A program made the position numbers and the translations under genes. From contig CAHJWP010000007.1 in the NCBI GenBank assembly GCA_903642255.1, positions 1 to 39,872 of the forward strand: 39,872 bases of DNA, read 5' to 3'. The notes under the pieces are model-generated. The model saw only the letters and a program-made list of their open reading frames with translations. It made no database searches and was not told the DNA's origin. Each line of letters starts with the position of its first letter. Position 1 is the stretch's first letter. Of the stretch, positions 278 to 26,425 are shown piece by piece. The stretch is from Sphingomonadaceae bacterium. GTDB lineage: Bacteria > Pseudomonadota > Alphaproteobacteria > Sphingomonadales > Sphingomonadaceae.

Positions 278-295
278 CTGGTCGGAGCGACAGGA
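278..295. repeat. attL: 18-bp direct repeat of the tRNA-Pro 3' end
   Basis: The sequence CTGGTCGGAGCGACAGGA matches 26348-26365 exactly. It contains the complement of the tRNA acceptor strand, discriminator base and CCA. No tRNA body follows it, so this is the orphan copy produced by site-specific integration. Confidence 0.9.
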
Positions 296-900: not shown

Positions 901-3900
901 ATGCCAGAAATAGACTTCTCCACCTTTGCGCCCCGTTCGTTCGAACAGTTCGCGCAGGCTCTATCGGCGAAGGTGTTCGGGGCGGGAATTCTCATCTTTG
1001 GTGACGGGCCCGACGGAGGCCGAGAGGCCGAGTTCGATGGCGAGGTGCCGTATCCGAACGCGGTTGAGCGCTGGACCGGGCTCACAATCATGCAAGCCAA
1101 GTATTGTGAGCGTCCGAAGGGAGACAGGCGTGATGCCGAGTGGCTAGTCGAGCAATTGCGGAATGAATGCCAAAAACTCGCCGCTTCGCCGGCACGCAAA
1201 ATTCCGCGTCAGATGGTGCTGGTCACAAACGTCCGATTGAGTGGCGTGCCGGCGACCGGACGTGGGTCAGGTGGCCAGGCAAAGCTCGATGCCGCGTTCC
1301 GCAAGTTCGCCGAGCCGCTCGGCATCACAGTGCTAGACGTCTGGCATGCAGATAAGCTCGCCGTCCTCCTTGATGGACACCCGGACTTGGCACGGGCTTA
1401 CAAGGCGTGGCTCACTCCTCGTGAAACCCTCGCAGCGGCCCTTGAGGCTTTTGAAGGTTCCCGCCCTTCATTTGTGTCCACGATCCGGCGTTACACCATG
1501 CGCGAATTCCGAGGACAATCGACAACGCGCCTACAGCAGGCGGGCCATCCTACCGAGGATGCGACCAAGCTCGAGCAGGTGTTTGTGGACCTACCGTGCC
1601 ACGATCTTGGCCGGCCAAGCGACGGTCGGTCGTCGATCGCAGGGCTCGACGAGCGCGAAACTGCTGTCGCGATGCTGCTCGATCGGCTTGGGTTGAAGCT
1701 CGACGCCACGCCCCTGCCTGGCGGCAACCCGCGCGAGGTCATTCCGGCGCGACACCTGCTGCTTGGCGGGCCTGGCCAGGGAAAGTCGACCGTCACACAG
1801 TTCCTTGGGCAGGTAATGCGCTGGCGCGTCCTCCTCGACGAGTCTCCCCACCTGCTCGGTCCGGATATAGCGCGGGGCCTTGATGAATTCGGGCTGCGGG
1901 CTTCAGAGCTGGGAATCACGGCCGATGGCCTGCGTCGTTACCCGATCAGAATCGATCTTCCTGTCTTCGCCGACGCGCTGGAGCGCGCCGTTCATGCGCG
2001 CAACAACCTCTCCCTGCTCGCGCATGTGACGGCCGAGGTCGCCAAAATCGCGGAAGAGACGGTCACAATGCAGGACATGCGTGGCTGGCTGAGCGCCCAT
2101 CCCTGGCTCCTCTTACTCGACGGGCTCGATGAGGTCCCGCCCTCCGGAAACCGGTCAGCAGTCATCGATGCGATCGTTCGCTTTTGGGACGAGGTGGATC
2201 CGCTTCAGGCTGACGTCGCGCTGATTGTGACGACCCGGCCGCAAGGTTATAATGACGATCTCGACCCGGCCCTCTACCGGAAAATGTCGCTGACGCCACT
2301 CGACGCAACTCGTGCGCTTGACTACGCGACTAGGCTTGCCAACGTGAGGCTAACACCTGACCGTCGCGACCGCGTTCTTGAGCGGCTCGCGGAGGCTGCT
2401 AGCAGGCCGGCGACGAGCAGTCTTCTCGTCAGTCCGCTCCAAGTGGCCATCCTCTTCCAGTTGGTCGATCAGCGCGGCGTCGCCCCCACGGATCGCTGGA
2501 CGCTGTTCAGTGGCTATGCCGCGGTTGTGACTGCGCGAGAACAGGAAAAGCCGGGCCCGTCTGGGGTGGTCATTCGCGACCACCACCTCAGCATTGAAAA
2601 GCTGTTGCGCAGGGTTGGGCTGCTCCTACACGTGGAGGCAGAGCGCGGCGGTGCCGCATCATCGAAAATCTCGATCGAGCTTGTTAACGCGGTCGTGCAG
2701 GACATCCTCAATGAGGACGGTTACGACGAGGCGCGCGTCATCGCTGTAGCGAGCGAGATCGTATCAGCTACCACTGACCGCCTCGTTTTCCTCGCCCAGC
2801 GCGAGGAGGGTCAGCTCGCGTTCGACGTCCGATCGCTGCAGGAGTATGCAGCGGCGGCCGAGATCATGTCTGGACGCGAGATAGCAGTCGGCGAGCGGCT
2901 GCACGAGATCGCAGGGCGCACTCACTGGCAACACGTCTACAAAATAGCCGCGAGCAAGGCGTTCTCCACCGCTGACGCCGGGTTGTTTCGCGACGTAATA
3001 CTGTCGACCAATAGGATGGTCGATGTAAGGACGCCAGGTGAGGCAGCGCTGGCACGAGGGGCTCACCTCGCTCTGGAGCTTCTTGAGGACGGGCTAGCGC
3101 TCCAGCAACCCAACTACCGGCGTCAGATGCTCTCGCACGCACTCGCGACGCTACGTTCCGCCAGTCCCGAGACGACGGGCAGGCTGGTCAGGGTTCTCAC
3201 AGGCTGCGAGCGGCGCGATCTCGACGAGGTGTCCTTGGCCGACCATCTTTCCGCCGTATCTCCAGATCGTCGGCGAGCGGCGTGGCGCCTATTGGCAAAT
3301 TTATCGGCATCGGGAGCCGTTTGGGCGGACGACATCGGGGCAGGCTTCTGGCCCGCCGATGTCGAGACTGCGGTCGAGGCCGCGACTTGTGGTGCGCTGC
3401 CAGGCAACGGCCAACTGCGCGACCGCTTCCGAGCCGCCCTTCTGCAAGCAACGCCTCGCATGTTAGCACGGGGAATGGCCGCCCTCGATCCCAACGAGCC
3501 CCACGGCGAACTACTTGAGCTCGCGCCCCAATTGCAGGTTTTTCGGAACCGCCTGCACGATGGATCGACGGAGGCGACGCTACTGCCGGATCACGCAGGC
3601 GACATGCGTCTTCAGTTCACGACGATCGAAGCGGCGCGAAAGGCATACGAGGGGCCGCTTCCAACGGGTGCCTTATGGGATGCCGTGGTGGCAACGGCGT
3701 CTTTCCTTGCCGCGCCTTCGAAGAACGCGCTTGCGGCTTGGTGTGGCGCAGTCCTTGAGCCCGAGACAGCGAAGATGTTGGACGGCGCCGTTTTGCCATG
3801 GATCTTGACGACCGTGCTCCAAATCTTCGAACACGAGCAAGACGTGGGCGCGCTTACGGACTTGATCCTGGCGGGCGGTCTCGGAGAGCTCGAAGACTGG

Positions 3901-4848
3901 ACGGATGCGGAAAGGCGCTGGATAGGCGATGGCGTTTTGGACGCGGATCTAGACGTCTGGAGCGGAGGTGCCTTCTTCCGGCACGATGTGGCATCCAGAG
4001 GCGCGCCAATGTTCGATGCTCTGGTGTCCTCGACGAACAAACGCGCGATCGACTGGGTGCCAGGTCTCGTGCAGCGCGCACTAAACGCGGAGTACGGTCC
4101 TCCCCGCAAACTTCTCGAATTTGTAGCCCGCGTTGCCGCGCAAGACCTGCCGGAACCCTCTCTGGGGGCGGCAGAATTCCTCGAGCTCGCCCCTCCGTCG
4201 CTCGACAGAATGGGTGATCACCGCCGCTTTTTTGATACTCGCGTGCTCGTCGCCGTGGAGCAGCAGGCATTCGAGGACGAAAAGGTTAAGCAGCGGATTG
4301 TCGATATCGTCACTAACCAGTTGCTCATGCTCAGCAACGGCCAAAGCGGGTCGCTGACCAAGCATCTCATGCAGCTTCTAGCCGAAGGGAGCGCGCCAGA
4401 TGAGTATCTGGCTGTCCTCGCTGCACTGGGGGGCGAAAGTGGCGCACAGTTCGTCGAAGCGGTCGCACAACTTGGCACGGTTGTCGAACGGGCGAGTAGA
4501 TCGGGGCTAGCGACATTGCGACAAGTCGCAGCTCTTGCCCGGGCAGTCCGCGGCGACGCGTCGGCGGCTGTGTGCACCGAGATCTTCTCCGACGAGGAGA
4601 ATCTCGCACAGTGGATCTTCATAGGTCTGGCGCGCGCCGGGCACCTGCGGGTCGACATAGCCGAGGCGGGACTAGTCGCCGCTATGGCAGAGCGGAGCTG
4701 GAACACGGGCGCGAAAAGTCGCGCGCGATTGGCGCTTGCGTCGTTGATCGACAAACGCATGTCGGACATCGCTGCGGAACGCGTCTGGGCTCGGCTCGAT
4801 TTGCCGCTGCGCTTGCGCGCAAGGCTGCGGATCGCAGCCGTTAGCTGA
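901..4848 (+). CDS. NACHT-domain STAND NTPase with a PD-(D/E)XK-like N-terminal nuclease domain
   Basis: This 1315-residue protein is built like an antiphage STAND sensor. Residues about 34-67 carry a restriction-endonuclease-like pattern: GPDGGREA (D38, E42), then QAK at 65-67. A central NACHT NTPase follows, with Walker A GGPGQGKST at about 289-297 and the typical NACHT Walker B LLLLDGLDEVP at about 402-412. The remaining 700 or so residues are helical and leucine/alanine-rich, consistent with a HEAT/TPR-like sensing region. In known Avs and bNACHT proteins, binding of a phage protein by the C-terminus drives NTP-dependent oligomerisation and activates the N-terminal effector; here the effector would cut DNA. 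The gene stands alone next to attL. The ATG at 901 gives the complete nuclease domain but has only a weak Shine-Dalgarno. Family architecture is confident; the trigger and target are unknown. Confidence 0.85.
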   Translation: MPEIDFSTFAPRSFEQFAQALSAKVFGAGILIFGDGPDGGREAEFDGEVPYPNAVERWTGLTIMQAKYCERPKGDRRDAEWLVEQLRNECQKLAASPARKIPRQMVLVTNVRLSGVPATGRGSGGQAKLDAAFRKFAEPLGITVLDVWHADKLAVLLDGHPDLARAYKAWLTPRETLAAALEAFEGSRPSFVSTIRRYTMREFRGQSTTRLQQAGHPTEDATKLEQVFVDLPCHDLGRPSDGRSSIAGLDERETAVAMLLDRLGLKLDATPLPGGNPREVIPARHLLLGGPGQGKSTVTQFLGQVMRWRVLLDESPHLLGPDIARGLDEFGLRASELGITADGLRRYPIRIDLPVFADALERAVHARNNLSLLAHVTAEVAKIAEETVTMQDMRGWLSAHPWLLLLDGLDEVPPSGNRSAVIDAIVRFWDEVDPLQADVALIVTTRPQGYNDDLDPALYRKMSLTPLDATRALDYATRLANVRLTPDRRDRVLERLAEAASRPATSSLLVSPLQVAILFQLVDQRGVAPTDRWTLFSGYAAVVTAREQEKPGPSGVVIRDHHLSIEKLLRRVGLLLHVEAERGGAASSKISIELVNAVVQDILNEDGYDEARVIAVASEIVSATTDRLVFLAQREEGQLAFDVRSLQEYAAAAEIMSGREIAVGERLHEIAGRTHWQHVYKIAASKAFSTADAGLFRDVILSTNRMVDVRTPGEAALARGAHLALELLEDGLALQQPNYRRQMLSHALATLRSASPETTGRLVRVLTGCERRDLDEVSLADHLSAVSPDRRRAAWRLLANLSASGAVWADDIGAGFWPADVETAVEAATCGALPGNGQLRDRFRAALLQATPRMLARGMAALDPNEPHGELLELAPQLQVFRNRLHDGSTEATLLPDHAGDMRLQFTTIEAARKAYEGPLPTGALWDAVVATASFLAAPSKNALAAWCGAVLEPETAKMLDGAVLPWILTTVLQIFEHEQDVGALTDLILAGGLGELEDWTDAERRWIGDGVLDADLDVWSGGAFFRHDVASRGAPMFDALVSSTNKRAIDWVPGLVQRALNAEYGPPRKLLEFVARVAAQDLPEPSLGAAEFLELAPPSLDRMGDHRRFFDTRVLVAVEQQAFEDEKVKQRIVDIVTNQLLMLSNGQSGSLTKHLMQLLAEGSAPDEYLAVLAALGGESGAQFVEAVAQLGTVVERASRSGLATLRQVAALARAVRGDASAAVCTEIFSDEENLAQWIFIGLARAGHLRVDIAEAGLVAAMAERSWNTGAKSRARLALASLIDKRMSDIAAERVWARLDLPLRLRARLRIAAVS

Positions 4849-5095: not shown

Positions 5096-5359
5096 ATGCG
5101 GCGGAGCCGTTTTACCGAAGAGCAGATCATAGCCGTGTTGCGCGAGCATGATGCGGGGGTGAAGACTGCGGAGCTGTGCCGGAAGCACGGGATCAGCGAC
5201 GCGACGTTCTACAACTGGAAGGCGAAGTTCGGGGGCATGACGGTGTCCGAGGCGGCGCGGCTGCGGGCACTCGAGGACGAGAACCGGCGGTTGAAGAAGC
5301 TGCTGGCGGAGTCGATGCTCGATGTCTCGGCGTTGAAGGACCTGCTGGCAAAAAACTGA
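5096..5359 (+). CDS. IS3-family transposase OrfA
   Basis: This 87-residue protein has an N-terminal helix-turn-helix ([17 protein letters not shown]...[20 protein letters not shown]), which binds the inverted repeats. A leucine-zipper-like coiled coil follows ([17 protein letters not shown], about 55-75) and mediates oligomerisation. The start is the ATG after an AAGAGGAG-type ribosome binding site. The end contains the slippery heptamer used to make the OrfAB fusion transposase. Length and motifs are standard for the family. Confidence 0.95.
5350..5356 (+). other. Programmed -1 frameshift heptamer A_AAA_AAC
   Basis: The zero-frame codons GCA AAA AAC sit immediately before the orfA stop codon. 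Slipping back one base reads AAA AAA CTG and enters the orfB frame. This is the canonical heptamer form used by IS3 elements to produce the full transposase. Confidence 0.85.
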
Positions 5360-6216
5360 CCCGGCCTGCAGATCGCTTCGCGGCGGTGGAGAAGCTCGTG
5401 GGCAACCACGGCTTCTCCGAACGCCGCGCCTGCAGGCTGGTCGGAGCGAACCGGTCGGCCTGGCAATACGAGCCGGTGCGTGGCGACGACGGCGCTGCGC
5501 GGGAGCGGTTGCGGGCCATTGCGAACGAGCGTCGGCGGTTCGGCTACCGGCGGCTGGCGATCATGCTCAGGCGTGAAGGCAAGACCATGAACCTGAAGAA
5601 GATCTACCGTCTGTACCGCGAGGAGCGGCTGACGGTGCGCAAGCGCGGCGGCCGCAAGCGGGCGCTGGGAACGCGGGCGCCGATGACGCTGCCCCAGGGT
5701 ACCAATCAGCGCTGGAGCCTCGACTTCGTCAGCGATGCACTGGCCTGCGGCCGGCGCTTCCGGGTGCTCAATGTCATCGACGACTGGAGCCGCGAATGCC
5801 TTGCCAGCGTCGTCGACACGTCGCTGTCGGGCAAGCGGGTCGTGCGCGAGCTGGCGGCGATCGTCGAGCGTCGCGGCAAGCCGTGCACGATCGTCAGCGA
5901 CAATGGCACCGAGCTCACCAGCCGTGCTGTCCTGGCGTGGTGCGAGGAAACCGGCATCGAATGGCACTACATCGCGCCCGGCAAGCCGACGCAAAACGGC
6001 TTCGTCGAGAGCTTCAACGGTCGCTTGCGCGACGAGTGCCTGAACGAGCACGCCTTCACCTCGCTGGCCGCTGCGAGGCGCATCATCGCGGCGTGGCAAC
6101 TCGACTACAACACCGTGCGGCCGCACAGCGGGCTTGGCGGGCTATCGCCCGCCGCGTACGTCAGCCGTCCCAATCCGGGGCAACCGTGGAACGAGCCTAA
6201 CTTATCCGCGGCCTGA
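5350..6216 (+). CDS. IS3-family transposase OrfB (catalytic part, expressed as OrfAB fusion)
   Basis: This is the catalytic DDE recombinase, read in the -1 frame of orfA from the slippery site. It begins with an HTH_21-type region ([15 protein letters not shown]) and is followed by an RNase H-fold integrase core. The three acidic residues are visible in [15 protein letters not shown] and [16 protein letters not shown]. It ends with the usual [18 protein letters not shown] motif. A separate initiation codon for OrfB is not evident; the start given is the frameshift point. No internal stop or deletion is seen, so the transposase appears functional. Confidence 0.93.
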
Positions 6217-6230
6217 AAACGGGGAGCACG

Positions 6231-6830
6231 TCAAAGTCCTTCTGGTGCCGCTACGAAGACACGTCGCGCGATAAACAGCCCGGTGATAGGCAAGGCGGGA
6301 AATCGAGCGGACAGGACCGCTTTCATCGCGCGAAAGTGAGTGCCAGCCGTCAGCACGTCATCGACAATGCCAATCTGCCGTATGGGAACTGCCGCTAGTG
6401 CTTCGTTGACATCGTATAAACCCAGAAGTTCGTCGACCGTCACGCGCGACCCGGCACCAGCCTCGTGGGCCGCAATGGCAGATTCGCGTTGAGCCACGAG
6501 ATTCCGAACGTCGACGCCGGCGGCAATCGATCGGCAAAGCTGCTCAATCCTGTCGTCATACTGCGGATGTCCGACAGCTTTGGACCCGGGAACCGGTACA
6601 AGTGTCGCTTCCGCAAGCCAGGCCGGGTTGAGCGCCTGTCGAAACGCGGTTGCAGCGTCCCTGATCGCTTTGTTCTTGTAGTAGAGCTCGTTCGCTGAGC
6701 TGCCAGGCTTCTTTTTGAGGTTCGATATCAACCCGTTGGTTGAGCTAAAGCTGTAATTCTTGCCGCTGGTATATTCGTAGAGGAATAAGCATTTGTCTTC
6801 GCCCCGCAGACGAACATGATCGGCGAGCAT
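6231..6830 (-). CDS. ComF-like phosphoribosyltransferase-domain protein, partner of the DprA-like gene
   Basis: A 199-residue protein whose C-terminal half is a type I phosphoribosyltransferase fold. The PRPP-binding loop IGIVDDVLTAGTHF is clear, and LVPVPGSKAVGHP is a typical ComF-like strand-loop upstream of it. The N-terminal 60 residues, with FLYEYTSGKNYSFSSTNGLISNLKKKP, are not recognised. The gene lies 28 bp after the dprA-like gene on the same strand and is surely co-transcribed. The ATG at 6830 has only a weak binding site; a longer open frame reaches into the upstream gene and is unlikely. The stop codon TGA is supplied by the inverted repeat of the IS at 5036-6233. Removing the IS restores TAG at the same point, so the protein is unchanged. 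Its biochemical role is unknown; nucleotide or phosphoribosyl chemistry is inferred from the fold only. Confidence 0.75.
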   Translation of the reverse strand: MLADHVRLRGEDKCLFLYEYTSGKNYSFSSTNGLISNLKKKPGSSANELYYKNKAIRDAATAFRQALNPAWLAEATLVPVPGSKAVGHPQYDDRIEQLCRSIAAGVDVRNLVAQRESAIAAHEAGAGSRVTVDELLGLYDVNEALAAVPIRQIGIVDDVLTAGTHFRAMKAVLSARFPALPITGLFIARRVFVAAPEGL

Positions 6831-6858
6831 GCTTTCATCGATCAGTGTGAAGCGAACA

Positions 6859-7749
6859 TCACTCGCCAAGGGCGGACCAGATATCGTTCGACGTGCGCAC
6901 GCGAACTGCCCCCTCGCTCTCGAACCGGGCAGGCCACGTGATGTCCGATCGCTCGAAACACGAATCGAGAATGAACAGTCTGCGACCCTGATGCATTGCT
7001 GCACGCGCCTGTATGAGCGTCCCGGACGTTTCGCCCGCTTCGACGATAATCGTGCCTTCCGTGAGCGCGCTCATCGTTATGTTTCGCTCGGGAAAGAAGA
7101 GCCGGTTCTGCGGGACGGCTTGCTGCCCGTAGCGCAGCACGGGCACTTGGGAGATCAAAAGGTACCCAGCGGCGATGCGCTGTTGCAGCTCGACATTCGA
7201 TTTTGGGTAGTAGTGACCGAGGGGCGTGCCAATGACCGCGATGGTCTTGCCCCCGTGCGCGAGCGCAGCCGTGTGCGCGGCCGTGTCGATGCCTTCGGCT
7301 AGCCCTGACACCACGGCAAAATTACGCTCGACCAAATCTCGAGCTAGCTGCGCGGCCCGACGCACGCCGATCGCGGATGCCTTGCGGCTGCCGACCACCG
7401 CGATCCCTCGCAGCTCGGTTAGCTCCCACGCGCCCTGATAATAGAGCATTTCGACGGGATATTTAGCGTCACGAAGCTTATCGGGATAGTCGCCTGCATG
7501 GTGAATTCGCACGCCAAAGCGATCGACCCCGAGCTTCTTGAGCTTCGCGAAAACGTCGCTCGCGCATTGATCGGCCAGCGCCCGCCCGACAAAATCCGAA
7601 GGCATCGCCGTCGGGTCGTTAGAAAAGCGGTCGGCAAGCGTCTTGAACGTCGCCCCGCGCTCCAGCCACAACGCCTCGTATGCACCCATCTCTCGACGGG
7701 GGGAGATGGGAGCGACCGCAGGACCGCTGGCATCGAGCGCTAGATTCAT
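6859..7749 (-). CDS. DprA/Smf-like DNA-processing protein
   Basis: This 296-residue protein has the Rossmann-like core of DprA/Smf: GIAVVGSRKASAIGVRRAAQLARDLVERNFAVVSGLAEGIDTAAHTAAL, then IGTPLGHYYPKSN, and FFPERNITMSALTEGTIIVEAGETSGTLIQA. Canonical DprA binds single-stranded DNA and loads RecA during transformation. This version lacks the usual C-terminal winged helix and is carried on a mobile element beside a phosphoribosyltransferase gene, so a defence or DNA-sensing role is more likely than competence. The start at 7749 follows a good GGGAGG site. It is the first gene of a two-gene operon. Family call is firm; function on this element is inferred. Confidence 0.85.
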   Translation of the reverse strand: MNLALDASGPAVAPISPRREMGAYEALWLERGATFKTLADRFSNDPTAMPSDFVGRALADQCASDVFAKLKKLGVDRFGVRIHHAGDYPDKLRDAKYPVEMLYYQGAWELTELRGIAVVGSRKASAIGVRRAAQLARDLVERNFAVVSGLAEGIDTAAHTAALAHGGKTIAVIGTPLGHYYPKSNVELQQRIAAGYLLISQVPVLRYGQQAVPQNRLFFPERNITMSALTEGTIIVEAGETSGTLIQARAAMHQGRRLFILDSCFERSDITWPARFESEGAVRVRTSNDIWSALGE

Positions 7750-7939
7750 CCTTTCCGACCTCCCTATCTGCGCTGCACCGGCATCATGGCGATTTATCCC
7801 CGCTTCGCCAAGCCGGACGCGTTTTTCAATCCGTTCCTTATATGTTCTTTTTATCCGCGTTTGTCGACCTCAAACGGCAAACATCGCCGCACAATTCAGG
7901 CGTGCACCCGCAATGCTGAAAATTAAGACGGGGACGCAT

Positions 7940-8140
7940 CTACTCGTCGACCCGGTAGAACATCGGGTTCCGCAGCCAGTCCCTGATCGCCGATTCCCGC
8001 CAGCCGGTGCAGCGTTCGGCGATCCGGACCTGACCGGGAAAGCTGCCGCCCTGGATCTTACGGTAGAGCGTCGAACGGCTGAGCCCGGTGCGGTCGAGCA
8101 CGGCGTCAATCCGGAGAATGCGGTCGGGAGCGTCGGACAT
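7940..8140 (-). CDS. alpA: AlpA-family transcriptional regulator
   Basis: A 66-residue MerR/AlpA-like winged-helix DNA-binding protein. The motifs are RILRIDAVLDRTGLSRSTLYRKIQGGSFPGQVRI and GWRESAIRDWL, which cover the whole protein. AlpA proteins on integrative elements control integrase or excision genes or act as excisionase-like factors. The ATG at 8140 was chosen over an upstream frame because it starts the domain and has an AGGAT site. The gene diverges from the parB-like gene across a 500-bp structured region. Its target here is not known. Confidence 0.88.
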   Translation of the reverse strand: MSDAPDRILRIDAVLDRTGLSRSTLYRKIQGGSFPGQVRIAERCTGWRESAIRDWLRNPMFYRVDE

Positions 8141-8641
8141 GGCGATGATCCTGTTTGAGGGAGGGCGCAAACCCCGGCTCCCACCAAAATCCTCTTCCCA
8201 TGATCGCCCGACAAGGCGGCCATTGCTCGCTATGGCCGCCGTTAGCCCTCCTCGACCCAACAGCACCCATAAAGTTGGATGCGAATGGCCCGGGCGTCTC
8301 ACCTGCGGTGACCGCGCTCTACTCCGCTGCGCTCCGCCGAGCCGCTGCGCGTCTCGGCCCTTCGGGTCACGATCGCTGACGCAGATGCCGGGCGCTGCCC
8401 GGCGATGCGGCCATCGCGCCGGTGCGCGCGATGAAGCAGGCCTCCGGCCGTCGGTCTGGCGGGGTGGGCGTCACGCTCCTCTAGGCCCGCCGCGGCAGGC
8501 CGCAACCCGGACGGTGTCCGGGTCCTCCACTTCGTTGCGGCCCTGCGGGTGCGGCCCGCCGCTGTGCGCGGGCCTGGCGAAGCGCTCCTGCCGCCCACCC
8601 CGCCATTCCGGCGCCGGTCGCGGTCTTGAAGGAGAAGAGCC
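8141..8641. promoter_or_regulatory. Hairpin-rich control region between alpA and the parB-like gene
   Basis: This GC-rich 500-bp interval has no convincing gene. It holds several short perfect inverted repeats: GCCGGGC/GCCCGGC at 8387-8403, ACCCGGAC/GTCCGGGT at 8505-8523, and GGCCCGC/GCGGGCC at 8553-8574. It must contain the promoters for the two divergent genes. It could also hold a centromere-like site for the ParB-like protein or a structured leader RNA, but nothing in the sequence decides this. Confidence 0.45.
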
Positions 8642-10423
8642 GTGGAACTCAAGCATATCGACCTGTCCTGCCTGTCGGTCTCGCCGGCCAACATGCGGGT
8701 CAAGGGCAGAACCCCCGACCTTGCCAACATTCTGCCGTCGGTGCGGGCCCGGGGTGTGTTGGTGCCGCTGATCGTGCGGGCGAACGGCAGCCCCGAGACC
8801 TATGAGATCGTCGCGGGCAAGCGGCGGTTCCATGCCGCGCTGGCAGTCGCCGAGGAGACGGGTGAAGCTGAGCCGCTGCCGTGCGCGGTCATCGCCGCCG
8901 GGGACGATGCCGCTGCGCTCGAAGCGTCGCTGATCGAGAACATCGCCCGGCTCGATCCCGACGAGGTGACGCGGTGGGAGACGTTCACCCGGCTGGTCCA
9001 TGAGGGACGCAGGCCCGAGGACATCGCCGCGACCTTCGGGCTGACCGACCTGCAGGTGCGGCGCACCCTTGCGCTCGGCAACCTGCTGCCGCGCATCCGT
9101 GGCCTCTACCGGCGCGGCGAGATCGACGCCGCGACCGTCCGCCATCTCACCCTCGCGTCCAAAGCCAAGCAGCGCGAGTGGCTGGCGCTGTTCGACGACG
9201 GTACGGCCTATTGCCCGACCGGCAGCCAGTTGAAGGCGTGGGCGTTCGGCGGGGCGTCGATCCCGGTCAGTGCGGCGCTGTTCGACCTTGCCACCTACAC
9301 TGGCGAGATTGTCTCCGACCTGTTCGGCGACGAGCGCTACTTCGCCAATGCCGAGACGTTCTGGGCAGCGCAGACCGCGGCGATCGACGGCAGGGTTGCC
9401 GCCTACCGCGAAGCCGGGTGGCGCGAGGTCGTCGTTCTGCCGGTCGGTACCGCGTTCCAGACGTGGGAGCATGAGCGGCGGACCAAGGCGAAGGGCGGGC
9501 GGGTCTATATCAGCGTCGGCACACGCGGCGATGCCGCGGTCCACGAAGGCTACATCACGACCAAGGAGGCGCGGCGGGAGGCGAAGGGCGAGGCGACAGC
9601 CGAGCGTCCCATTCGGCCTGAGGCGAGCGCCATCCTCAACGGCTATGTCGACCTTCATAGGCACGCCGCCGTGCGGGCCAAGCTGGCCGATGCGCCCGGC
9701 GTTGCACTCCGCGTCGCGGTCGCGCAGCTGATCGCCGGATCGTCGCTGTGGCAGGTGCGCGTCGCGTCCCAGCGGGCGGGGACCGATGCGGTCACCGAAA
9801 GCGTCGAGATCAGTCCGTCCGAGGGGTCATTCGATGCCAAGCGGCGGGCGATCCTCGCGATACTGGCGTTCGACCCCGAGACGCCGACCGTCACCGGCGG
9901 CAACGGGTATGATGAAGGGCTGACCCAGCTGTTTGTCCGGCTGACGGCGCTGTCCGACACCGACGTGCTGGCGGTGCTCGCCATCGTCGTCGGCGAGACC
10001 CTCGACCCGCGCAGCGACATCGTCGATGCGCTCGGTTTGCACCTTAGGGTCGACATGGCCGCCGTCTGGCAGGCGGATGCGGCGTTCGTCGATGCTTTGC
10101 GTGACCGCGAGGTGTTGCTCTCCATGATCGGCGAGGTCACGGGTCCAGCGGTGGCAGAAGCCAACAGCAAGGAGCCGGTCAAGACGCTGCGGACGATCCT
10201 CCGCGACTGCCTCGATGGCACCGGCGGGCGAGCCAGAGCGGAAGGCTGGGTGCCATGCTGGCTGGCGTTCCCGGCGAGCGCGTCCACTTCGCGTGGCGGG
10301 GTCGGTAGTGTCAGTCGGTCGGCGCGGGCGGTGGCTGCGCTGACGCCGCAGGCCGAGGTGCAAAACTCCGAGATGCACCGGGAAGCCGAGCCGGAGATCG
10401 AGCCGGTCCGCGCCGCCGCGTGA
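8642..10423 (+). CDS. parB: ParB/RepB/Spo0J-family protein
   Basis: A 593-residue protein with an N-terminal ParB-type nuclease/CTPase domain: PANMRVKG, YEIVAGKRRFHAALAV (the counterpart of the GERRxRA box) and LIENIARLDPDEVTRWETFTRL. A helix-turn-helix follows (PEDIAATFGLTDLQVRRTLALGNLLPRIRGLYRRGEI, about 120-160). The long C-terminal half resembles the large ParB-like proteins on alphaproteobacterial plasmids and integrative elements. The start is GTG with a strong AAGGAG site. No parA ATPase gene is present, so it may act in maintenance or regulation of the excised form rather than in classical partition. Downstream lies a small sigma-like gene in the same direction. Confidence 0.85.
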   Translation: MELKHIDLSCLSVSPANMRVKGRTPDLANILPSVRARGVLVPLIVRANGSPETYEIVAGKRRFHAALAVAEETGEAEPLPCAVIAAGDDAAALEASLIENIARLDPDEVTRWETFTRLVHEGRRPEDIAATFGLTDLQVRRTLALGNLLPRIRGLYRRGEIDAATVRHLTLASKAKQREWLALFDDGTAYCPTGSQLKAWAFGGASIPVSAALFDLATYTGEIVSDLFGDERYFANAETFWAAQTAAIDGRVAAYREAGWREVVVLPVGTAFQTWEHERRTKAKGGRVYISVGTRGDAAVHEGYITTKEARREAKGEATAERPIRPEASAILNGYVDLHRHAAVRAKLADAPGVALRVAVAQLIAGSSLWQVRVASQRAGTDAVTESVEISPSEGSFDAKRRAILAILAFDPETPTVTGGNGYDEGLTQLFVRLTALSDTDVLAVLAIVVGETLDPRSDIVDALGLHLRVDMAAVWQADAAFVDALRDREVLLSMIGEVTGPAVAEANSKEPVKTLRTILRDCLDGTGGRARAEGWVPCWLAFPASASTSRGGVGSVSRSARAVAALTPQAEVQNSEMHREAEPEIEPVRAAA

Positions 10424-10484: not shown

Positions 10485-10748
10485 ATGAGCGATCATCCCG
10501 ACCCGAGCGATCAGCCCGATCCGCAGACGATTGCAGACCTCGAAACGGCGATGCGGTCGCTGCCCTGGTTGACCCGTGAGGTGTTCCTCGCCGCTCGGCT
10601 CGACGCGGTATCCTATGCCGAGATCGCCAGCCGCACCGGGCTGACGGTCGATCAGGTTAGCAAGCGTATGGCAAACGCGATGGCAGCGCTCGACCGCGAG
10701 CTTGGCGGCGCACGGACGCCGTGGTGGCGGCGATGGCTGCGGTTCTGA
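10485..10748 (+). CDS. Small sigma-70 region-4-like helix-turn-helix protein
   Basis: An 87-residue protein. The segment LPWLTREVFLAARLDAVSYAEIASRTGLTVDQVSKRMANAMAALDREL matches sigma factor region 4, the helix-turn-helix that reads the -35 box. No region 2 is present, so it cannot be a complete sigma factor. The ATG follows a strong GGAGG site with 7-nt spacing, 61 bp after the parB-like stop, and the two genes are probably one transcript. A regulatory role in element maintenance or transfer is inferred. Confidence 0.75.
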   Translation: MSDHPDPSDQPDPQTIADLETAMRSLPWLTREVFLAARLDAVSYAEIASRTGLTVDQVSKRMANAMAALDRELGGARTPWWRRWLRF

Positions 10749-10827
10749 ACGAGGCTCGCCGGTCGCGAGGGTATGCGACCGGCGGAGCTGTAATTTGCTC
10801 GCGTCCGTCGCTAGGATCGCCGCGACC

Positions 10828-11739
10828 ATGAACACCAGTCTCGACCATCTGCCGCAGGCCAAGCAGCGCGAACTCGCCCACGTCGTCCGCATCCTGTTCG
10901 AGGAGTTCGACGCAGCCCACGCGACGACGACGACGCGGTGGAAGAAGCAGGGGCGGATCGCCAAGATCGTGCTGTACGGCAGTTACGCACGCGGCGACTG
11001 GGTCGACGATCCGGTCGGCGGCTACACGTCGGATTACGACCTGCTGATCGTCGTCAACGACGACCGCCTGACCGACTTCGAGCTGTGGTCGGCGGCCGAG
11101 GACCGGTTACTGCGCGAGGCGACGATCACGCACACGCTGAGTGCACCGGCCAGCTTCATTGTCCACAGCCTCAGCGACGTGAACCAGCAGCTCGAGCGCG
11201 GTCGCCCGTTCTTCGTCGACATCGTCCGGCAGGGCATCGCGCTGTACGACGCCGAAGGGTTTAGTTTCGCCAGCCCGCGCGAGTTGCCAGCCGAGGAGGC
11301 GCGGGTCGAGGCGCAGGGCTACTTCGATCACTGGTTTGACCATGCCCTCAGCGCCAAGATGGGAGCCGATTTCTACGTCGAGCGGCAGAAGCCACGGGAT
11401 GCGGCTTTCCTCTTTCATCAGGCCGTCGAACGATTTTACCACTGCACGTTGCTGACCATCACGCTGTACAGCCCGAAGTCGCACCGGCTTACCTTCCTCC
11501 GGTCACAGTGCGAGCAGATCGCGCCGTCGCTGATCGCGGCGTGGCCTCGCGATGAGCGGTTCGCGCGACGCTGCTTCGAGCTGTTGCGTCAGGCGTACGT
11601 CAGCGCGCGCTACTCACCGCATTACGAGATCAGCGGCGATGAGCTGACGTGGCTTGGTGCCCATGTCGCCGAGCTGCAGACGCTCGTCGAGACGGTCTGC
11701 CGCGCGCGGTTGGAGTTGAGCGTAGTCGCGGACTCGTAA
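10828..11739 (+). CDS. Single-chain nucleotidyltransferase-HEPN fusion protein
   Basis: This 303-residue protein fuses an N-terminal minimal nucleotidyltransferase to a C-terminal HEPN domain. The transferase motif is GSYARGDW (51-58) with the metal-binding pair in SDYDLL (D69, D71). The HEPN part shows the typical AFLFHQAVERFYHCTLL helix and the SARYSPHYEI loop. In two-gene HEPN-MNT toxin-antitoxin systems the transferase modifies and silences the HEPN ribonuclease; here both are in one chain, as also seen in kanamycin-nucleotidyltransferase-like relatives on conjugative elements. The internal ATG at 10828 was chosen because it begins the domain and has an AGGAT site. Whether the HEPN part is a nuclease cannot be settled from the sequence; its classical Rx4-6H motif is not obvious. 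Confidence 0.8.
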   Translation: MNTSLDHLPQAKQRELAHVVRILFEEFDAAHATTTTRWKKQGRIAKIVLYGSYARGDWVDDPVGGYTSDYDLLIVVNDDRLTDFELWSAAEDRLLREATITHTLSAPASFIVHSLSDVNQQLERGRPFFVDIVRQGIALYDAEGFSFASPRELPAEEARVEAQGYFDHWFDHALSAKMGADFYVERQKPRDAAFLFHQAVERFYHCTLLTITLYSPKSHRLTFLRSQCEQIAPSLIAAWPRDERFARRCFELLRQAYVSARYSPHYEISGDELTWLGAHVAELQTLVETVCRARLELSVVADS

Positions 11740-13079: not shown

Positions 13080-13107
13080 AGGGCGCGCTTATACGTCGTG
13101 CCGACGT
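13080..13107 (-). other. Putative oriT (Q-type nic region with adjacent hairpin)
   Basis: On the minus strand a perfect 6-bp inverted repeat, ACGTCG/CGACGT with a 3-nt loop (13093-13107), is followed at once by ATAAGCGCGCCCT (13080-13092). The nic core known from RSF1010/R1162 is TAAGTGCGCCCT, preceded by a hairpin in the same way; the match here is 11 of 12. Ti plasmid oriT sites have the related TAATTGCGCCCTT. The site lies between divergent traD and traA, where Ti-type oriT sites occur, next to a MobQ/TraA relaxase that would cleave it. The comparison sequences are from memory. The nick would be predicted between the G and C before CGCCCT. Confidence 0.75.
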
Positions 13108-13136: not shown

Positions 13137-15968
13137 ATGGCGCTCTACCACTTCTCGGCAAAGGTCATCGGCCGCGGTGCTGGCTCCAGCGCTGTCGCCG
13201 CGGCGGCATACCGCTCGGCCTCGCGGCTGCACGACGAGCGCCTCGACCGCCACCACGACTTCTCGAACAAGGCCGGCGTCGTCCACTCCGAGGTGATGCT
13301 CCCCGAGGGTGCACCCGAGCAATTGGCCGACCGAGCCGCGCTGTGGAACGCGGTCGAGGCAGGCGAGAAGCGGATCGACGCCCAGCTCGCACGCGAGATC
13401 GAGTTCGCCATCCCCCGCGATCTCGATCAGACGCAGGGCATCCGCCTCGCGCGCGAGTTCGTGAAGTCCGAGTTCGTCGACCGCGGCATGATCGCCGACC
13501 TCAACGTCCACTGGGACATCGGACCCGATGGGCTGGCGAAGCCGCACGCGCACGTTATGCTGACCATGCGCGAGGTCGGCGAGGACGGGTTCGGCGCCAA
13601 GGTCCGCGACTGGAACCGCACCCAGCTCCTCGAACACTGGCGCGAGGCATGGGGGACGCACGTCAACGCGCGCCTCGCCGAACTCGACATCGACGCCCGC
13701 GTCGATCACCGCAGCCTAGACGCCCAAGGCATCGACCTCGAGCCGCAGCACAAGATCGGCCCAGCGGCGTCCCGCATGGCGCGCGATGGACTTCAGCTCG
13801 AGCGCGTCGACGAACATGCTGCAATTGCGCGCGCCAACGGCGAAAAGCTGCTTGCTCGCCCGGAGCTGGCACTTGACGCAATCACCCACCAGCAAGCGAC
13901 ATTTACGACGCGCGACCTCGCGATGTTCGTCCATCGCCATAGCGACGGCAAGGAGCAGTTCGACCGCGTGCTGGCGGCGGTCAGGGCGTCACCCGAGATC
14001 GTCGCGCTGGGCAGCGACGGCCGCGGCGAGGCGCGGTTCACTTCGCGGGCAATGATCGCGACCGAGCAGCGCCTCGAACGCGCCACCGCCGCACTCGACG
14101 CCGACCGAAGCCACCGCGTCGGCACGCGCGTGCAGGACGCGGCGCTGGCGCGCGCCGCAGCGCGCGGCATGGTCCTCTCGCCCGAGCAGCGGACGGCGTT
14201 CGCCCATGTCGCCGAGGCGAAGGGACTCGGCGTCGTCATCGGCTATGCCGGGACGGGGAAGTCGGCGATGCTCGGGGTGGCGCGCGAGGCGTGGGAGAGT
14301 GCCGGCTATCAGGTGCAGGGCGTTGCCTTGTCGGGCATCGCCGCCGAGAACCTCGCGAGCGGTTCGGGTATCGCGTCGCGCACCATCGCCAGCCTCGAAC
14401 ACAGCTGGGCGCAGGATCGCGACCGGCTGACCGGGCGTGACGTCCTCGTCGTCGACGAGGCAGGGATGATCGGTAGTCGCCAGATGGAGCGGGTGCTGTC
14501 GGAAGCCCGCGACCGCGGCGCCAAGGTCGTGCTTGTCGGCGACGCGAAGCAGCTCCAGGCGATCGAAGCCGGCGCGGCGTTCCGCAGCGTCGCCGAGCGG
14601 CACGGGGCGGCCGAGATCACCGACATCCGTCGCCAGCGCGACGACTGGCAGCGCGACGCGACACGGCAGCTGGCGACCGGCCGCACCGCGCAGGCGATCA
14701 ACGCCTATGCCGAGCATGGCAATGTCCACGCATCTCCGACGCGCGACGACGCGCGCGCGGCGCTGGTCGAGCGCTGGGATCGCGACCGGCAGGATGCTCC
14801 TGACGCGACGCGGATCATCCTCACCCACACCAACGACGAGGTTCGCGCGCTCAACCTGGCCGCCCGCGAGCGGCGGCGCGACGCGGGCGAACTGGGCCAG
14901 GACGTGAAGATCCAGACCGAGCGCGGCAGCCGCGAGTTCGCAAGCGGCGACCGGGTCATGTTCCTGCAGAACGAGCGCAGCCTTGGCGTGAAGAATGGCA
15001 CCCTCGGCACAATCGAGCAGGTGAGCAGCGCGCGCATGGCCGTGCGGCTCGACGACGGTCGGTCGGCGGCGTTCGACATCAAGGACTACGCGAACCTCGA
15101 CCACGGCTATGCCGCCACCGTCCACAAGGAGCAGGGCGTGACGGTCGACCGGGTCCATGTCCTCGCCACGCCGGGTCTCGACAGCCACGCGGCGTACGTT
15201 GCGCTGTCGCGTCACCGCGATCGGGTCGACCTCCACTATGGCCACGACGACTTTGCCGACCAGCGCCAGTTGGTAGGTGCGCTATCGCGCGACCGCGGCA
15301 AGGACATGGCTTCGGATTATGCGGAGCAACAGACGTCCGACCGCAGCAGGGCGGCGGAGCCGGCGCGGCAGCCCGGCCGGTTCGCGGGGCTCCGGCTGAC
15401 GCCGGCGGGACCCGCCGTCGACGTCACCCAGTCCCCGTTCGACAAGGCGGTCGAACGGTTTGCGCGCGCAACAGCAGACATCGGCCGGATGCAGGTGCAG
15501 GGGCTGTCGGCGCTGCCGCATCAGCGGCAGGCGCTCGACGCGGCATCGAAGGGGCTCGACGCGATGCAATCTGAGGCGGCGCGCGACCTGCGGGCCGCGT
15601 TCGCGAGCACGCCGGCCCTTGTCGTCGATGCCGCCAAGGGACGGACGACTGCCGCCATCCGCGCCATGACGCTCGAAGCCGAGGTGCGCGTCGATCTCGG
15701 CCGCCGCGCCGACCGGTTCGTCGCCGACTGGCAGCGGCAGGCAAAGCAGTATGCGACACTCGACAGGAACCGCGACTACGATGCCGCCGACAAGGTAAGC
15801 GAAGCCATGAACGGCATGGCGAAAGGCCTTGAGCGTGATCCCCAGCTCGAGTCGCTGCTGCGCAACCGGGTGAAAGAGCTCGGAATCGGCACGTCGAGCG
15901 GAGCATCCTTGTCCCATGAGCTCCAGCAGGGACGCACCCACTCGCGGGGCTACGACCTGTCGCTGTAG
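13137..15968 (+). CDS. traA: Ti-type conjugative transfer relaxase TraA (MobQ relaxase plus helicase)
   Basis: A 943-residue two-domain protein. The N-terminal MobA/MobL relaxase has YHFSAKVIGRGAGSSAVAAAAYRSASRL and the metal-binding HAHVML (H137, H139) after GLAKP. The helicase domain has Walker A GYAGTGKS at about 369-376, Walker B VLVVDEAGMIG and the superfamily I motif HGYAATVHKEQGVTVDRVHVL...AYVALSRHRDRV. It would nick oriT, stay bound to the 5' end and unwind the strand for transfer. The ATG at 13137 begins the conserved relaxase N-terminus, so the longer open frame upstream is not coding and is the oriT region. Length is near the usual 950-1100. A DUF6118 gene follows 9 bp later. Confidence 0.93.
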   Translation: MALYHFSAKVIGRGAGSSAVAAAAYRSASRLHDERLDRHHDFSNKAGVVHSEVMLPEGAPEQLADRAALWNAVEAGEKRIDAQLAREIEFAIPRDLDQTQGIRLAREFVKSEFVDRGMIADLNVHWDIGPDGLAKPHAHVMLTMREVGEDGFGAKVRDWNRTQLLEHWREAWGTHVNARLAELDIDARVDHRSLDAQGIDLEPQHKIGPAASRMARDGLQLERVDEHAAIARANGEKLLARPELALDAITHQQATFTTRDLAMFVHRHSDGKEQFDRVLAAVRASPEIVALGSDGRGEARFTSRAMIATEQRLERATAALDADRSHRVGTRVQDAALARAAARGMVLSPEQRTAFAHVAEAKGLGVVIGYAGTGKSAMLGVAREAWESAGYQVQGVALSGIAAENLASGSGIASRTIASLEHSWAQDRDRLTGRDVLVVDEAGMIGSRQMERVLSEARDRGAKVVLVGDAKQLQAIEAGAAFRSVAERHGAAEITDIRRQRDDWQRDATRQLATGRTAQAINAYAEHGNVHASPTRDDARAALVERWDRDRQDAPDATRIILTHTNDEVRALNLAARERRRDAGELGQDVKIQTERGSREFASGDRVMFLQNERSLGVKNGTLGTIEQVSSARMAVRLDDGRSAAFDIKDYANLDHGYAATVHKEQGVTVDRVHVLATPGLDSHAAYVALSRHRDRVDLHYGHDDFADQRQLVGALSRDRGKDMASDYAEQQTSDRSRAAEPARQPGRFAGLRLTPAGPAVDVTQSPFDKAVERFARATADIGRMQVQGLSALPHQRQALDAASKGLDAMQSEAARDLRAAFASTPALVVDAAKGRTTAAIRAMTLEAEVRVDLGRRADRFVADWQRQAKQYATLDRNRDYDAADKVSEAMNGMAKGLERDPQLESLLRNRVKELGIGTSSGASLSHELQQGRTHSRGYDLSL

Positions 15969-18215: not shown

Positions 18216-18745
18216 GTGTGTTGCAGCTTGCGTTGCAGCAACTCGATCAAGCACATTACTCCGTCGCTATTGTAGACGATTCCACCGGCCAGTATTTGGT
18301 ATTTGAAGGGGAAACTGTTCTTGGCTTCGTGCTCGCTTTCCCGGATGGCGCAAGCCTGATCGATACTTGGCGGGCACGAAGTCAGCACGTCCTGAAAGCG
18401 TCGCAGTTCGGCCTGCGTCGAGCGGAAGCCAAGGCTTGGAACGCATATCTGGTTCTACTGGCTCGGGACTTGGCGGACTATGGTGTCAGCGTCAACCTGA
18501 GCGCGATCGAGGAAGACCTGACTGGGACGCGGAAGATTGCTCGCGCTGGAATCTCGACCGAAACGATGGTGCGAGCCGCGCTGTTGCCACTACTCGCTAT
18601 GCAGAACGCGCCACAATTAAATGCAGTTGACATGGCGGCTGAAATCCGGCTGCGAACATCGGAGCTTCCAAGTGAATTGATTGACGCCTTCGTCCGCGGG
18701 GCACCAGAAGCGACGATGCTCCAGCTGTTGGAGACTGCCCAATGA
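18212..18745 (+). CDS. lmuC: Small middle component of the SIR2/SMC operon (LmuC-like)
   Basis: This 177-residue, mainly helical protein has no motif I recognise beyond its position. It starts at a GTG overlapping the SIR2 gene stop by 4 bp, and its own stop overlaps the ATG of the SMC-like gene (ATGA). Such tight coupling of effector, small protein and SMC ATPase is the arrangement in Lamassu (LmuA-LmuC-LmuB), where the small subunit bridges the SMC dimer and the effector. The name is therefore given by context and size, not by sequence similarity that I can demonstrate. Confidence 0.65.
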   Translation: MSVLQLALQQLDQAHYSVAIVDDSTGQYLVFEGETVLGFVLAFPDGASLIDTWRARSQHVLKASQFGLRRAEAKAWNAYLVLLARDLADYGVSVNLSAIEEDLTGTRKIARAGISTETMVRAALLPLLAMQNAPQLNAVDMAAEIRLRTSELPSELIDAFVRGAPEATMLQLLETAQ

Positions 18746-24899: not shown

Positions 24900-26144
24900 C
24901 TACAAGGGGTGCAGATCGCCGTGCGACGTCTCTGCCTCCTCGAGGTACTTCGCCCACCATTCCATCATTCGACGCCTATGACCTAGGTAGCGCGCTGAAT
25001 TGTACGCGGCCCGGACGCCGCGCGGCGTATGGGCGAGCTGATGCTCGATCCAATCGGGCTCGAACAATCCGCTTTCGTTAAGCACAGTGCTCGCCAAGCC
25101 GCGAAAGCCGTGCACGGTCGCCTTACCCCGCAGCCCGATGCGGTACATGATGTCGAGCATCCGGTTCTCACTGATCGTCGATGTCTTCGATCCCACCACC
25201 GGAAAAAGATACCGTCCGAACCTCTCGTTGCCCGCGGTGCGGTAGACATTCGCGTCGCGAATCTCGTCGAGCAGCGCAACCGCCTGCGGGGCCAACGGCA
25301 CGATATGCTCCGACCGCATCTTCATGCGGCCCGACGGGATGCGCCATAGCGGCTCGCAGGTGCCGATCCCCTCAATCTCGCACCACTCCGCCATCCGGGT
25401 TTCCTGCGTCCGCACCATGGTCATTATCGTCCAGCGCAATGCGAGGTGGCTCTTGCGTTCACCGCCATCAGCATTCAATTTCGCAAAAAAGCCCGGCAAC
25501 GCCGTAACCGCGACCTTGGAGAGGTGCTGGACCGGCTTGGGCGTCGCCATCGCCGGGGCCAGATCACGGCACGGGTCGCTGGCGCATCGCCCGTCGGGAA
25601 TAGCGTAGCGGAACACCTCGCTGCAGTGGTTCTTCACGCGGTGCGCCATCTCGATCGAGCCGCGCCGCTCGATCGCCCGAAACGCTTCGAGCATCTGGCG
25701 CGGCGTGATGCTGGCGATCGGCTCACGGCCGACGACCGGAAAAATGTCCCCCACCATCCGACGCATGATGACGCCGGCATAGCGCGGTGACCAGCCGAGC
25801 AACCGGGTCTCGTGCCACTCGCGCGCGACCGCCTCGAAGCTGCTGTCCGGTACAATGCCCGCCGCCTTGCTCTTGGCGTCCGCGCGCAACTTCGGTTGTG
25901 CGGTGGGTGCCATGCCGAGCAGGAGCTGGGCTTTGACAGCGCTGCGCCAGTCCCGCGCGTCGCGCAGGCTCACCTCGGGATAGCCACCGCCCTTCAGGAA
26001 TTTCTGCTTGCCTTCATACCGGCAAGCGAGGCCCCAGTTTTTCGTGCCGCTCGGATAGACCGCCACGAACAGGCCGCCGCCGTCCGAACGCTTGTACGGC
26101 TTGGCCTGCGGCTTCAGCGTCTTCACAGCGACGTCGGTCAGCAT
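24900..26144 (-). CDS. int: Tyrosine recombinase / P4-type integrase of the element
   Basis: A 414-residue integrase. The N-terminal arm-binding domain (DUF4102) begins MLTDVAVKTLKPQAKPYKRSDGGGLFVAVYPSG and continues GKQKFLKGGGYPEVSLRDAR. A core-binding SAM-like domain comes next. The catalytic domain shows the first arginine in MVRTQETRMAEW, the HGFRGLAST box (H-x-x-R) and the tyrosine in AAYNSARYLGHRRRMMEWWAKYL. It would recombine attP with the 3' end of tRNA-Pro to create the 18-bp repeats. The internal ATG at 26144 is used because it starts the conserved domain and has a GGAG site with 9-nt spacing. It is read leftward from the tRNA end and is convergent with the restriction-modification gene. 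Confidence 0.95.
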   Translation of the reverse strand: MLTDVAVKTLKPQAKPYKRSDGGGLFVAVYPSGTKNWGLACRYEGKQKFLKGGGYPEVSLRDARDWRSAVKAQLLLGMAPTAQPKLRADAKSKAAGIVPDSSFEAVAREWHETRLLGWSPRYAGVIMRRMVGDIFPVVGREPIASITPRQMLEAFRAIERRGSIEMAHRVKNHCSEVFRYAIPDGRCASDPCRDLAPAMATPKPVQHLSKVAVTALPGFFAKLNADGGERKSHLALRWTIMTMVRTQETRMAEWCEIEGIGTCEPLWRIPSGRMKMRSEHIVPLAPQAVALLDEIRDANVYRTAGNERFGRYLFPVVGSKTSTISENRMLDIMYRIGLRGKATVHGFRGLASTVLNESGLFEPDWIEHQLAHTPRGVRAAYNSARYLGHRRRMMEWWAKYLEEAETSHGDLHPL

Positions 26145-26172
26145 TTCTCGTACTCCGCCAGCACCGACCATG

Positions 26173-26213
26173 TTGTTGGAACAGTGTTGGAAATTTGTTG
26201 GCTGTTCCAACAA
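26173..26213. repeat. 12-bp inverted repeat with GTTGG repeats upstream of the integrase
   Basis: Perfect arms TTGTTGGAACAG (26173-26184) and CTGTTCCAACAA (26202-26213) flank a 17-bp centre that itself repeats TGTTGGA and TTGTTGG. It lies 29 bp before the integrase start. Arm-type integrase sites and AlpA/excisionase operators are found in this position in P4-like elements. Binding by either protein is an inference. Confidence 0.7.
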
Positions 26214-26348
26214 ACTGCCCATCAGAGCGCTGGGCTGCAAGGGTTGCCCCTGAACCGCTGCTGGACACTAACCCATTGGTTTTATTTAATTAAGATAGGA
26301 GGCAAGGGACGCTTTGGGAGGCCTTGGCATGTCCCTGGAATGCGTCTC

Positions 26349-26425
<77 letters not shown>

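Follow-up and report, generated by a model that had tools for sequence, protein, structure and literature searches.

A covarying branched hairpin from the leading region of a Sphingomonadaceae integrated mobilizable element: a proposed single-stranded-DNA promoter

What does the DNA between alpA (ATG at 8140, minus strand) and a ParB-like gene (GTG at 8642, plus strand) of a Sphingomonadaceae bacterium do? The gap (8141–8641) measures 501 bases, and a preliminary description of the window, i.e. the whole stretch of 39,872 nt analyzed here, called it a hairpin-rich non-coding region. This region does exist, and its folding goes far beyond that of dinucleotide shuffles, with z scores of −4.8 on the plus strand and −5.4 on the minus strand (0 of 100 shuffles as good on either strand). 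The core at 8440–8620 reaches a z score of −6.7, and 0 of 200 shuffles are as good. Several perfect inverted repeats had also been reported; these are present as short arms, e.g. CATCGCGC at 8412–8419 with GCGCGATG at 8426–8433, but the longer arms are imperfect (for example, 8449–8473 and 8589–8613 are 84% complementary). Likewise, the structure had been drawn across about 500 bp, and this holds for the core at 8458–8604 but not for the whole region as one conserved structure. Specifically, the gap contains two conserved blocks, block A at about 8290–8401 followed by block B (Table 1).

The window holds an integrated mobilizable element (278–26365), with its att repeats and integrase listed in Table 1. 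The relaxase scores above the curated cut-offs for the MOBQ/Ti type, and its start is MALYHFSAKV at 13137, the start of the listed open reading frame (12897) being too early. Among the 27 window proteins scanned with Pfam, no secretion-system family is found. The sequence TAAGNGCGCCCT occurs once in the window (0.02 copies expected), on the minus strand at 13080–13091 and 46 nt before the relaxase start at 13137. Here, directly before the relaxase gene, a nic core TAAGNGCG-CCCT lies beside the inverted repeat ACGTCG-GCA-CGACGT (13093–13107; 6-bp arms). We take the site at 13080–13091 to be the nic core of RSF1010/Ti-type origins. The orientation of this nic-like site makes the minus strand the transferred strand, and given this site the hairpin lies 4.5 kb into the leading region. 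TAAGNGCGCCCT is present in 7 of 116 loci, at the relaxase in L034, L037, and L041, and also in L046, L049, L108, and L113.

Table 1. Positions of the features discussed, as numbered in the window (strand "." where none applies).
Feature	Position	Strand	Evidence or remark
Matching att repeat, other end of the element	278..295	.	18-bp perfect repeat, E 6e-5
AlpA-type regulator	7943..8140	-	Pfam Phage_AlpA, E 1e-15
Block A, second conserved block, CUP-like	8290..8401	-	Similar to repeats of an IncN-like leading region
Block B, branched hairpin; proposed single-stranded-DNA promoter	8458..8604	-	Alignment A1, wobbles, model R1
TAGAGG, -10-like box; first T paired, unpaired bubble from A(-11) onward	8478..8483	-	
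TTGCGG, -35-like box inside a paired helix	8500..8505	-	TTGC invariant in the alignment
Apical hairpin with conserved loop GnAACGnAGTGGA and two covarying closing pairs	8524..8540	-	Alignment
Predicted zone of transcription start, templated by the opposite arm of the minus strand	8586..8592	+	Inferred from box spacing and fold
ParB-like gene (ParB_N), first after the hairpin; template is the minus strand	8642..10423	+	Pfam
87-aa protein, little beyond sigma-70 region 4	10485..10748	+	Pfam Sigma70_r4_2, E 2.6e-12
Nucleotidyltransferase (Polbeta) and HEPN protein, leading region	10702..11739	+	Pfam
Nic-like site TAAGCGCGCCCT of the origin of transfer	13080..13091	-	Sole match in the window, 0.02 expected
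Relaxase-helicase TraA, Ti type, MobQ	13137..15968	+	TIGR02768 915 bits (cut-off 590), NF041496 247 bits (cut-off 200)
Tyrosine integrase, adjoins tRNA-Pro	24903..26240	-	
Att repeat, 3' end of tRNA-Pro	26348..26365	.	18-bp perfect repeat

Other genes of the window include a row of a SIR2-like gene, a small gene, and an SMC/LmuB-like ATPase (16890–20769), which is a candidate defence system; a Rhizobium plasmid (L137) is annotated with a row of SIR2, hypothetical, and AAA ATPase genes adjoining a recombinase. A type IIG restriction-modification enzyme lies at 21386–24736 (PADLOC E 1e-129), and a DprA-like protein matching PADLOC ShosA (E 2.5e-94) at 6862–7749, adjoined by a same-strand ORF (6231–7004) that could be the ShosA partner. 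A transposase-like gene with rve integrase-core domains lies inside the element at 5176–6216 and is presumably of the IS3 type, and a 1315-aa ORF near the left att site (901–4848) is without Pfam or PADLOC match.

Block B is GC-rich, branched, and about 147 nt long, and its fold consists of a GC-rich base stem, an internal bubble, and a long helix with three small hairpins on top. A comparison of the stems across homologous regions had been proposed as a check, and it finds them clearly conserved, with covariation. In an alignment of 39 sequences (A1), 24 of the 34 pairs show a compensatory change, and 96% of the alignment cells pair in the structure, against 35–47% in slid versions of it. Its covariation score of 0.332 compares with 0.127 in shuffles and at most 0.066 in slid structures, and 0 of 500 shuffles reach the observed values. 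The conserved apical loop spans 14 nt, and its closing pairs covary. A1 is the 42-sequence set used below minus L028, L033, and L038; the larger set leaves out L032, L035, L036, L039, and L045 (duplicates, near-duplicates, or partial copies), as well as loci without a block B match. As such, a structured non-coding element bound up with the ParB-like gene, as the preliminary description had it, is real and conserved.

The hairpin is also found well beyond this locus. For block B, a covariance model (R1) was built from the minus strand; it scores the block in the window, a member of the model's own alignment, at 129 bits. With up to eight candidates scored per genome, R1 finds block B in at least 6 of 385 genomes of the class, one of them the genome of the window itself, and among 45 genomes picked for earlier matches it finds the block in 44, with 84 copies in total and 1 to 6 per genome. 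The 501-base gap as a whole matches 67 of 296 genomes of the order at E ≤0.001, partly over short stretches only, as well as 58 plasmid records. Gap-like DNA precedes the ParB-like gene in all 12 loci retrieved via the ParB-like protein. The window's own genome contains one further full and one partial hairpin copy (L117 and L118; G000:C29 and G000:C144). A ParB-like gene and a TraA relaxase come after each of them, so this genome harbours related elements or copies side by side.

The placement of the hairpin relative to the origin of transfer recurs among these copies. Of 23 loci examined, 19 have a full relaxase start, and in each of these 19 a nic-like site (one with one mismatch) lies 39–55 nt upstream on the opposite strand. 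The hairpin is on the leading side in 18 of the 19, the exception being L132, where it is on the trailing side, and in all 19 the predicted transferred strand serves as template for the gene that follows the hairpin. In one pair (L127/L128), hairpin and relaxase come from separate stretches of one contig, and in L118 just 54 nt of the hairpin are present. Three of the 19 loci are in the window's own genome, and therefore not all represent independent events; the 19 also compare with 84 known copies, 16 of the 45 searched genomes being without this relaxase family.

Block B contains promoter-like boxes on its minus strand. The TTGC (8505–8502) is found in 42 of 42 aligned sequences, and all four of its bases are paired in the fold, so part of this invariance may be structural. 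A −10-like TAnAGG follows 16 nt past the TTGCGG hexamer, with A(−11) (A8482) in 42, A(−9) (A8480) in 37, and T(−12) (T8483) in 34 of the 42 sequences, and no gap columns separate TTGC from A(−11). Among 18 sequences outside R1 (15 not among the 42 and 3 shared), the TTGC is present in 18, the same box distance in 16, and A(−11) in 16; all were retrieved by R1 and were hence selected for resemblance to it. Four rhizobial-type copies have CAGGAC or similar at the −10 position and no TAnA, and a Phaeobacter copy reads TTGCGC-N16-CATCAT, i.e. with the same spacing. We take TTG plus a CTAnA box to be the Caulobacter housekeeping promoter consensus.

The motif TTG-N18..20-TAnA is found in 5e-5 of base-shuffled consensus sequences. 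As a plain sigma-70-like site the pair of boxes is weak, as an equally good site is present in 27% of shuffled sequences on average. In 39 of 57 sequences, no such site on either strand scores better than the proposed one; in the other 18 it is outscored, in 15 of these by a site on the opposite strand. A promoter and terminator scan demanding TATAAT-like boxes gave nothing promoter-like at 7900–8800, its sole yield being a weak terminator-like site at 8131–8147. In double-stranded DNA, the boxes of block B point away from the ParB-like gene. In the folded strand, the −35 is the box nearer the apex and the −10 the one nearer the base, and the template arm leads on into the ParB-like gene. The direction of the boxes would make sense in a folded single strand only, and we propose that block B, in the leading region of this integrative mobilizable element, probably serves as a single-stranded-DNA promoter and perhaps also as a primer.

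The main rival of the promoter reading is priming alone. Here, block B would be a single-strand initiation site (ssi) at which the folded transferred strand recruits primase or the primosome (DnaG, PriA), with the apical loop as recognition site and no promoter. The most widely kept part of the structure speaks for it, because this is the apical three-hairpin module (including the hairpin at 8524–8540), which recurs on different base stems in plasmids of Rhizobium (two), Ancylobacter, Mesorhizobium, and Phaeobacter. In favour of the promoter, the four rhizobial-type copies (two in Rhizobium, plus Ancylobacter and Mesorhizobium) all have a zincin/ArdC-type gene next, and the Phaeobacter copy precedes a short hypothetical gene. 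The rhizobial-type stretch matches 29 of 385 genomes of the class at E ≤0.001, many of the matches being short and weak. Matches of the module in eight phage records (E 0.04–0.5) were taken as chance.

The module is also present in the IncW plasmid R388 (25436–25505; L135 8977–9046) and in pCH32, which bears the same IncW stretch. Its R388 copy has the three hairpins with the same loop sequences, and is 85% identical to the window over 48 nt. It sits on another base stem, is reversed relative to the adjacent gene, has no TAnA at the spacing, and has no annotated gene in its promoter direction. We assume that the stb side of R388 enters first, which places the module on the non-transferred strand. 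Nothing argues more strongly than this reversed copy against a pure promoter role and in favour of priming. The conserved apical loop may also resemble primosome-site motifs. Against priming alone, in 52 of 57 copies a mechanically picked ORF starts no further than 50 nt from the hairpin, and a pure priming site needs none. Likewise, 1 to 6 copies per genome are more than pure priming requires, and neither the spacing from TTGC to the −10-like box nor the bubble is explained by it. Overall, we consider an initiation site without a promoter unlikely.

The genes that follow the hairpin bear on a second group of explanations, in which block B is bound by the ParB-like protein as a centromere-like site, or serves the excised circle as a double-stranded replication origin. 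Such a site is suggested by the adjoining ParB-like gene, and the preliminary description had raised both possibilities, pointing out that the protein is without a ParA partner. No ParA family is found by Pfam among the 27 window proteins scanned, in agreement with this observation. By Pfam, the 55 genes directly after the hairpin (57 distinct copies minus the ORFs cut by contig ends in L096 and L107) include 27 with ParB_N, 18 with the ArdC zincin domain, and 16 with the ArdC N-terminal domain, the overlap between the latter two not being listed. A few match sigma region 4 (3 of 55), DUF2958, or a SLOG family, and a few of the ORFs look wrong-frame, e.g. those of L016 and L031. The ParB share is inflated, because 9 of the 55 (the window and eight loci retrieved via the protein) are ParB-like by construction.

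A ParB centromere is unlikely because 18 of the 55 downstream genes carry the ArdC zincin domain instead, i.e. the site is not tied to a ParB gene in all copies as a parS-type site would be. Direct repeats in the gap are two-copy only and 70–91% alike. The ParB-like protein of the window resembles the ParB-like protein of the F leading region (148 residues, 29%, E 3e-8), which F carries in addition to its partition genes. The scan of 27 proteins also yields no replication gene, and an origin of the excised circle is unsupported as such; what survives of this idea is the single-strand initiation site discussed above. Centromere and double-stranded origin are thus very improbable. Two further leading-region proteins have relatives at other loci. 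A tblastn search places relatives of the 87-aa sigma-region-4 protein in 20 of 39 long loci, duplicates included, and the nucleotidyltransferase-HEPN protein has relatives in 16 other loci.

Whether block B is a structured RNA, as had also been suggested, can be addressed by asking which strand folds. For this we counted wobble pairs (A-C marks a minus-strand wobble) over the 54 pairs common to the plus- and minus-strand consensus folds of the 42 sequences. This strand-neutral set has 71 A-C and 38 G-U (26 vs 10 columns; sign test 0.011), and a set thinned to 80% identity and refolded (22 sequences) has 32 and 13 (19 vs 6 columns; sign test 0.015), the columns not being fully independent in these tests. 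A fold with G-U forbidden gives 20 A-C and 5 G-U (21 pairs), and the wobbles of block A lean to the minus strand likewise (28 A-C vs 15 G-U; 19 pairs). As a control, the best 30 of 58 RNase P matches in 60 genomes show 139 G-U vs 15 A-C on the RNA strand in the strand-neutral set, a ratio of 9:1. Folding the wrong strand of RNase P alone gives 159 G-U vs 180 A-C, so only the strand-neutral set is trusted. For block B, the pairs of the plus-strand fold alone are even (72 A-C vs 70 G-U), and those of the minus-strand fold alone give 80 A-C vs 48 G-U.

The wobbles point to the minus strand, where a plus-strand RNA would give the opposite, and therefore block B is not the fold of a plus-strand RNA. 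The excess is modest (about 2:1), and would suit folded single-stranded DNA better than RNA of either strand. Overall, block B likely acts as a folded single strand. A plus-strand 5' leader RNA of the ParB-like and ArdC mRNAs, riboswitch-like or acting in translational control, would account for the closeness of the hairpin to the start codon and for its strongly conserved fold. It is contradicted by the wobbles, compared with 9:1 for the RNA strand of RNase P, and the gap has no Rfam family at the gathering cut-off; we dropped it on the wobble test as highly improbable. Two Rfam matches obtained with permissive filters (E 2.3 and 3.7) are at chance level. A minus-strand non-coding RNA containing the hairpin agrees with the direction of the bias, but at about 2:1 this is far below the 9:1 of a true RNA, and promoter-like boxes inside the structure would exclude half of it, so it is just as improbable.

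Returning to the promoter reading, conservation, covariation, strand bias, position and orientation relative to the nic-like site, and conserved boxes at a fixed spacing are all computed, and from them we infer polymerase binding, start site, timing, and shut-off as follows. During mobilization, the minus strand would leave via the origin of transfer at about 13084, with the hairpin region near its front on entry into the recipient. The still-single minus strand would fold into the branched hairpin, whose 3' arm would offer the paired −35-like TTGC and the −10-like TAnA 16 nt after TTGCGG. With the first base of the −10 paired and A(−11) and the following bases unpaired, this arrangement would resemble an open promoter. 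RNA polymerase would start near 8586–8592 and read the transferred strand into the ParB-like gene, or into ArdC at other copies, and the protective first genes may in this way be switched on before second-strand synthesis. Once the second strand is made, the boxes would point away from the gene and the signal would shut off. The hairpin RNA may also prime second-strand synthesis, as is reported for Frpo.

Early expression is expected to matter for ArdC, because the recipient requires it: according to PMC7213743, conjugation into Pseudomonas putida depends on ArdC of R388 on the recipient side but not on the donor side. A bolder version, which we regard as doubtful, is that block B represents a separate class of GC-rich single-stranded promoters in alphaproteobacterial mobile elements, with a premelted −10, an apical module, shared with R388, that turns the hairpin into a second-strand primer too, and a sigma-region-4 protein (10485–10748) that aids polymerase onto the folded −35. 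If so, the premelted −10 bubble and the paired −35 would mean that little −10 sequence is needed.

If the promoter reading is true, early expression from the incoming strand would be a more general strategy. The hairpin family covaries, occurs in Alphaproteobacteria and here on an integrated mobilizable element, and is without clear similarity to Frpo. Its host element carries restriction and other candidate defence genes, and block B gives a concrete fold with predicted boxes, start site, and strand. We found no literature on single-stranded promoters in Sphingomonads or on this element in a search that mostly covered journals outside subscription. A large published search used five known Frpo/ssi sequences as well as −35/−10 consensus searches in four islands (PMC11541004), and the terms Alphaproteobacteria, Proteobacteria, Rhizob, and Sphingo are absent from its main text.

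Several known systems resemble parts of this locus. Block A matches repeats that an IncN-like Klebsiella plasmid carries in its leading region, together with ccg and antirestriction genes (H16, E 2e-6; five places in L048). From the gene names and PMC6289460 (pKM101 leading region), we take these repeats to be CUP elements. Block B differs in this respect, since R1 has no match in the IncN-like region at E up to 5. In the establishment regulon of p576/pLS20, too, conserved sequences precede ardC and further establishment genes with a role in the recipient (PMC8708921). These are Gram-positive plasmids, however, with a regulon defined by upstream sequences, and the likeness is one of description. 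The sso/ssi of ICEBs1, also a single-strand element, contributes to second-strand synthesis of a conjugative element (PMC4595007). By contrast, block B has a conserved position directly before genes, and priming is a candidate role here.

The closest comparison is with Frpo of F and the related ssi promoters (Masai and Arai 1997, as told in PMC9849209, PMC11541004, and PMC7690428), single-stranded promoters having been described for F, ColIb-P9, and related plasmids (PMC9849209, PMC11541004, PMC7690428). In these, the single-stranded form folds and displays −10 and −35 boxes, and Frpo RNA primes DNA synthesis in vitro (PMC9849209, PMC7690428). Like Frpo/ssi, block B has a stable and selected fold of the transferred strand and sits in the leading region ahead of genes that use this strand as template (leading side in 18 of 19 loci, template in 19 of 19). 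As in F, ParB-like and anti-restriction genes are found nearby.

Block B also differs from Frpo. It is a GC-rich branched hairpin of about 147 nt with TTGC and TAnA-type boxes, and is found in Alphaproteobacteria, often with a Ti-type relaxase and here on an integrated mobilizable element. As for −35 and −10 boxes reconstituted in the fold, as in Frpo, block B has a paired, invariant TTGC and a weak TAnA-like box, and four rhizobial-type copies are without TAnA. Local alignment of the 42 sequences with both F Frpo copies gives no clear similarity, the comparison being with F Frpo only. Specifically, the best of the 42 scores 32, its own 60 shuffles reach 29, the shuffles of another sequence reach 32, and the other 11 sequences listed do not exceed their shuffles. 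In the F region, R1 finds nothing up to E 5. A shared 17-nt stretch was rejected as a sign of homology, as it lies near the hairpin base in F and at the apex here. We propose that block B probably works like Frpo and, given the lack of clear similarity to F Frpo, do not file it as a homologue.
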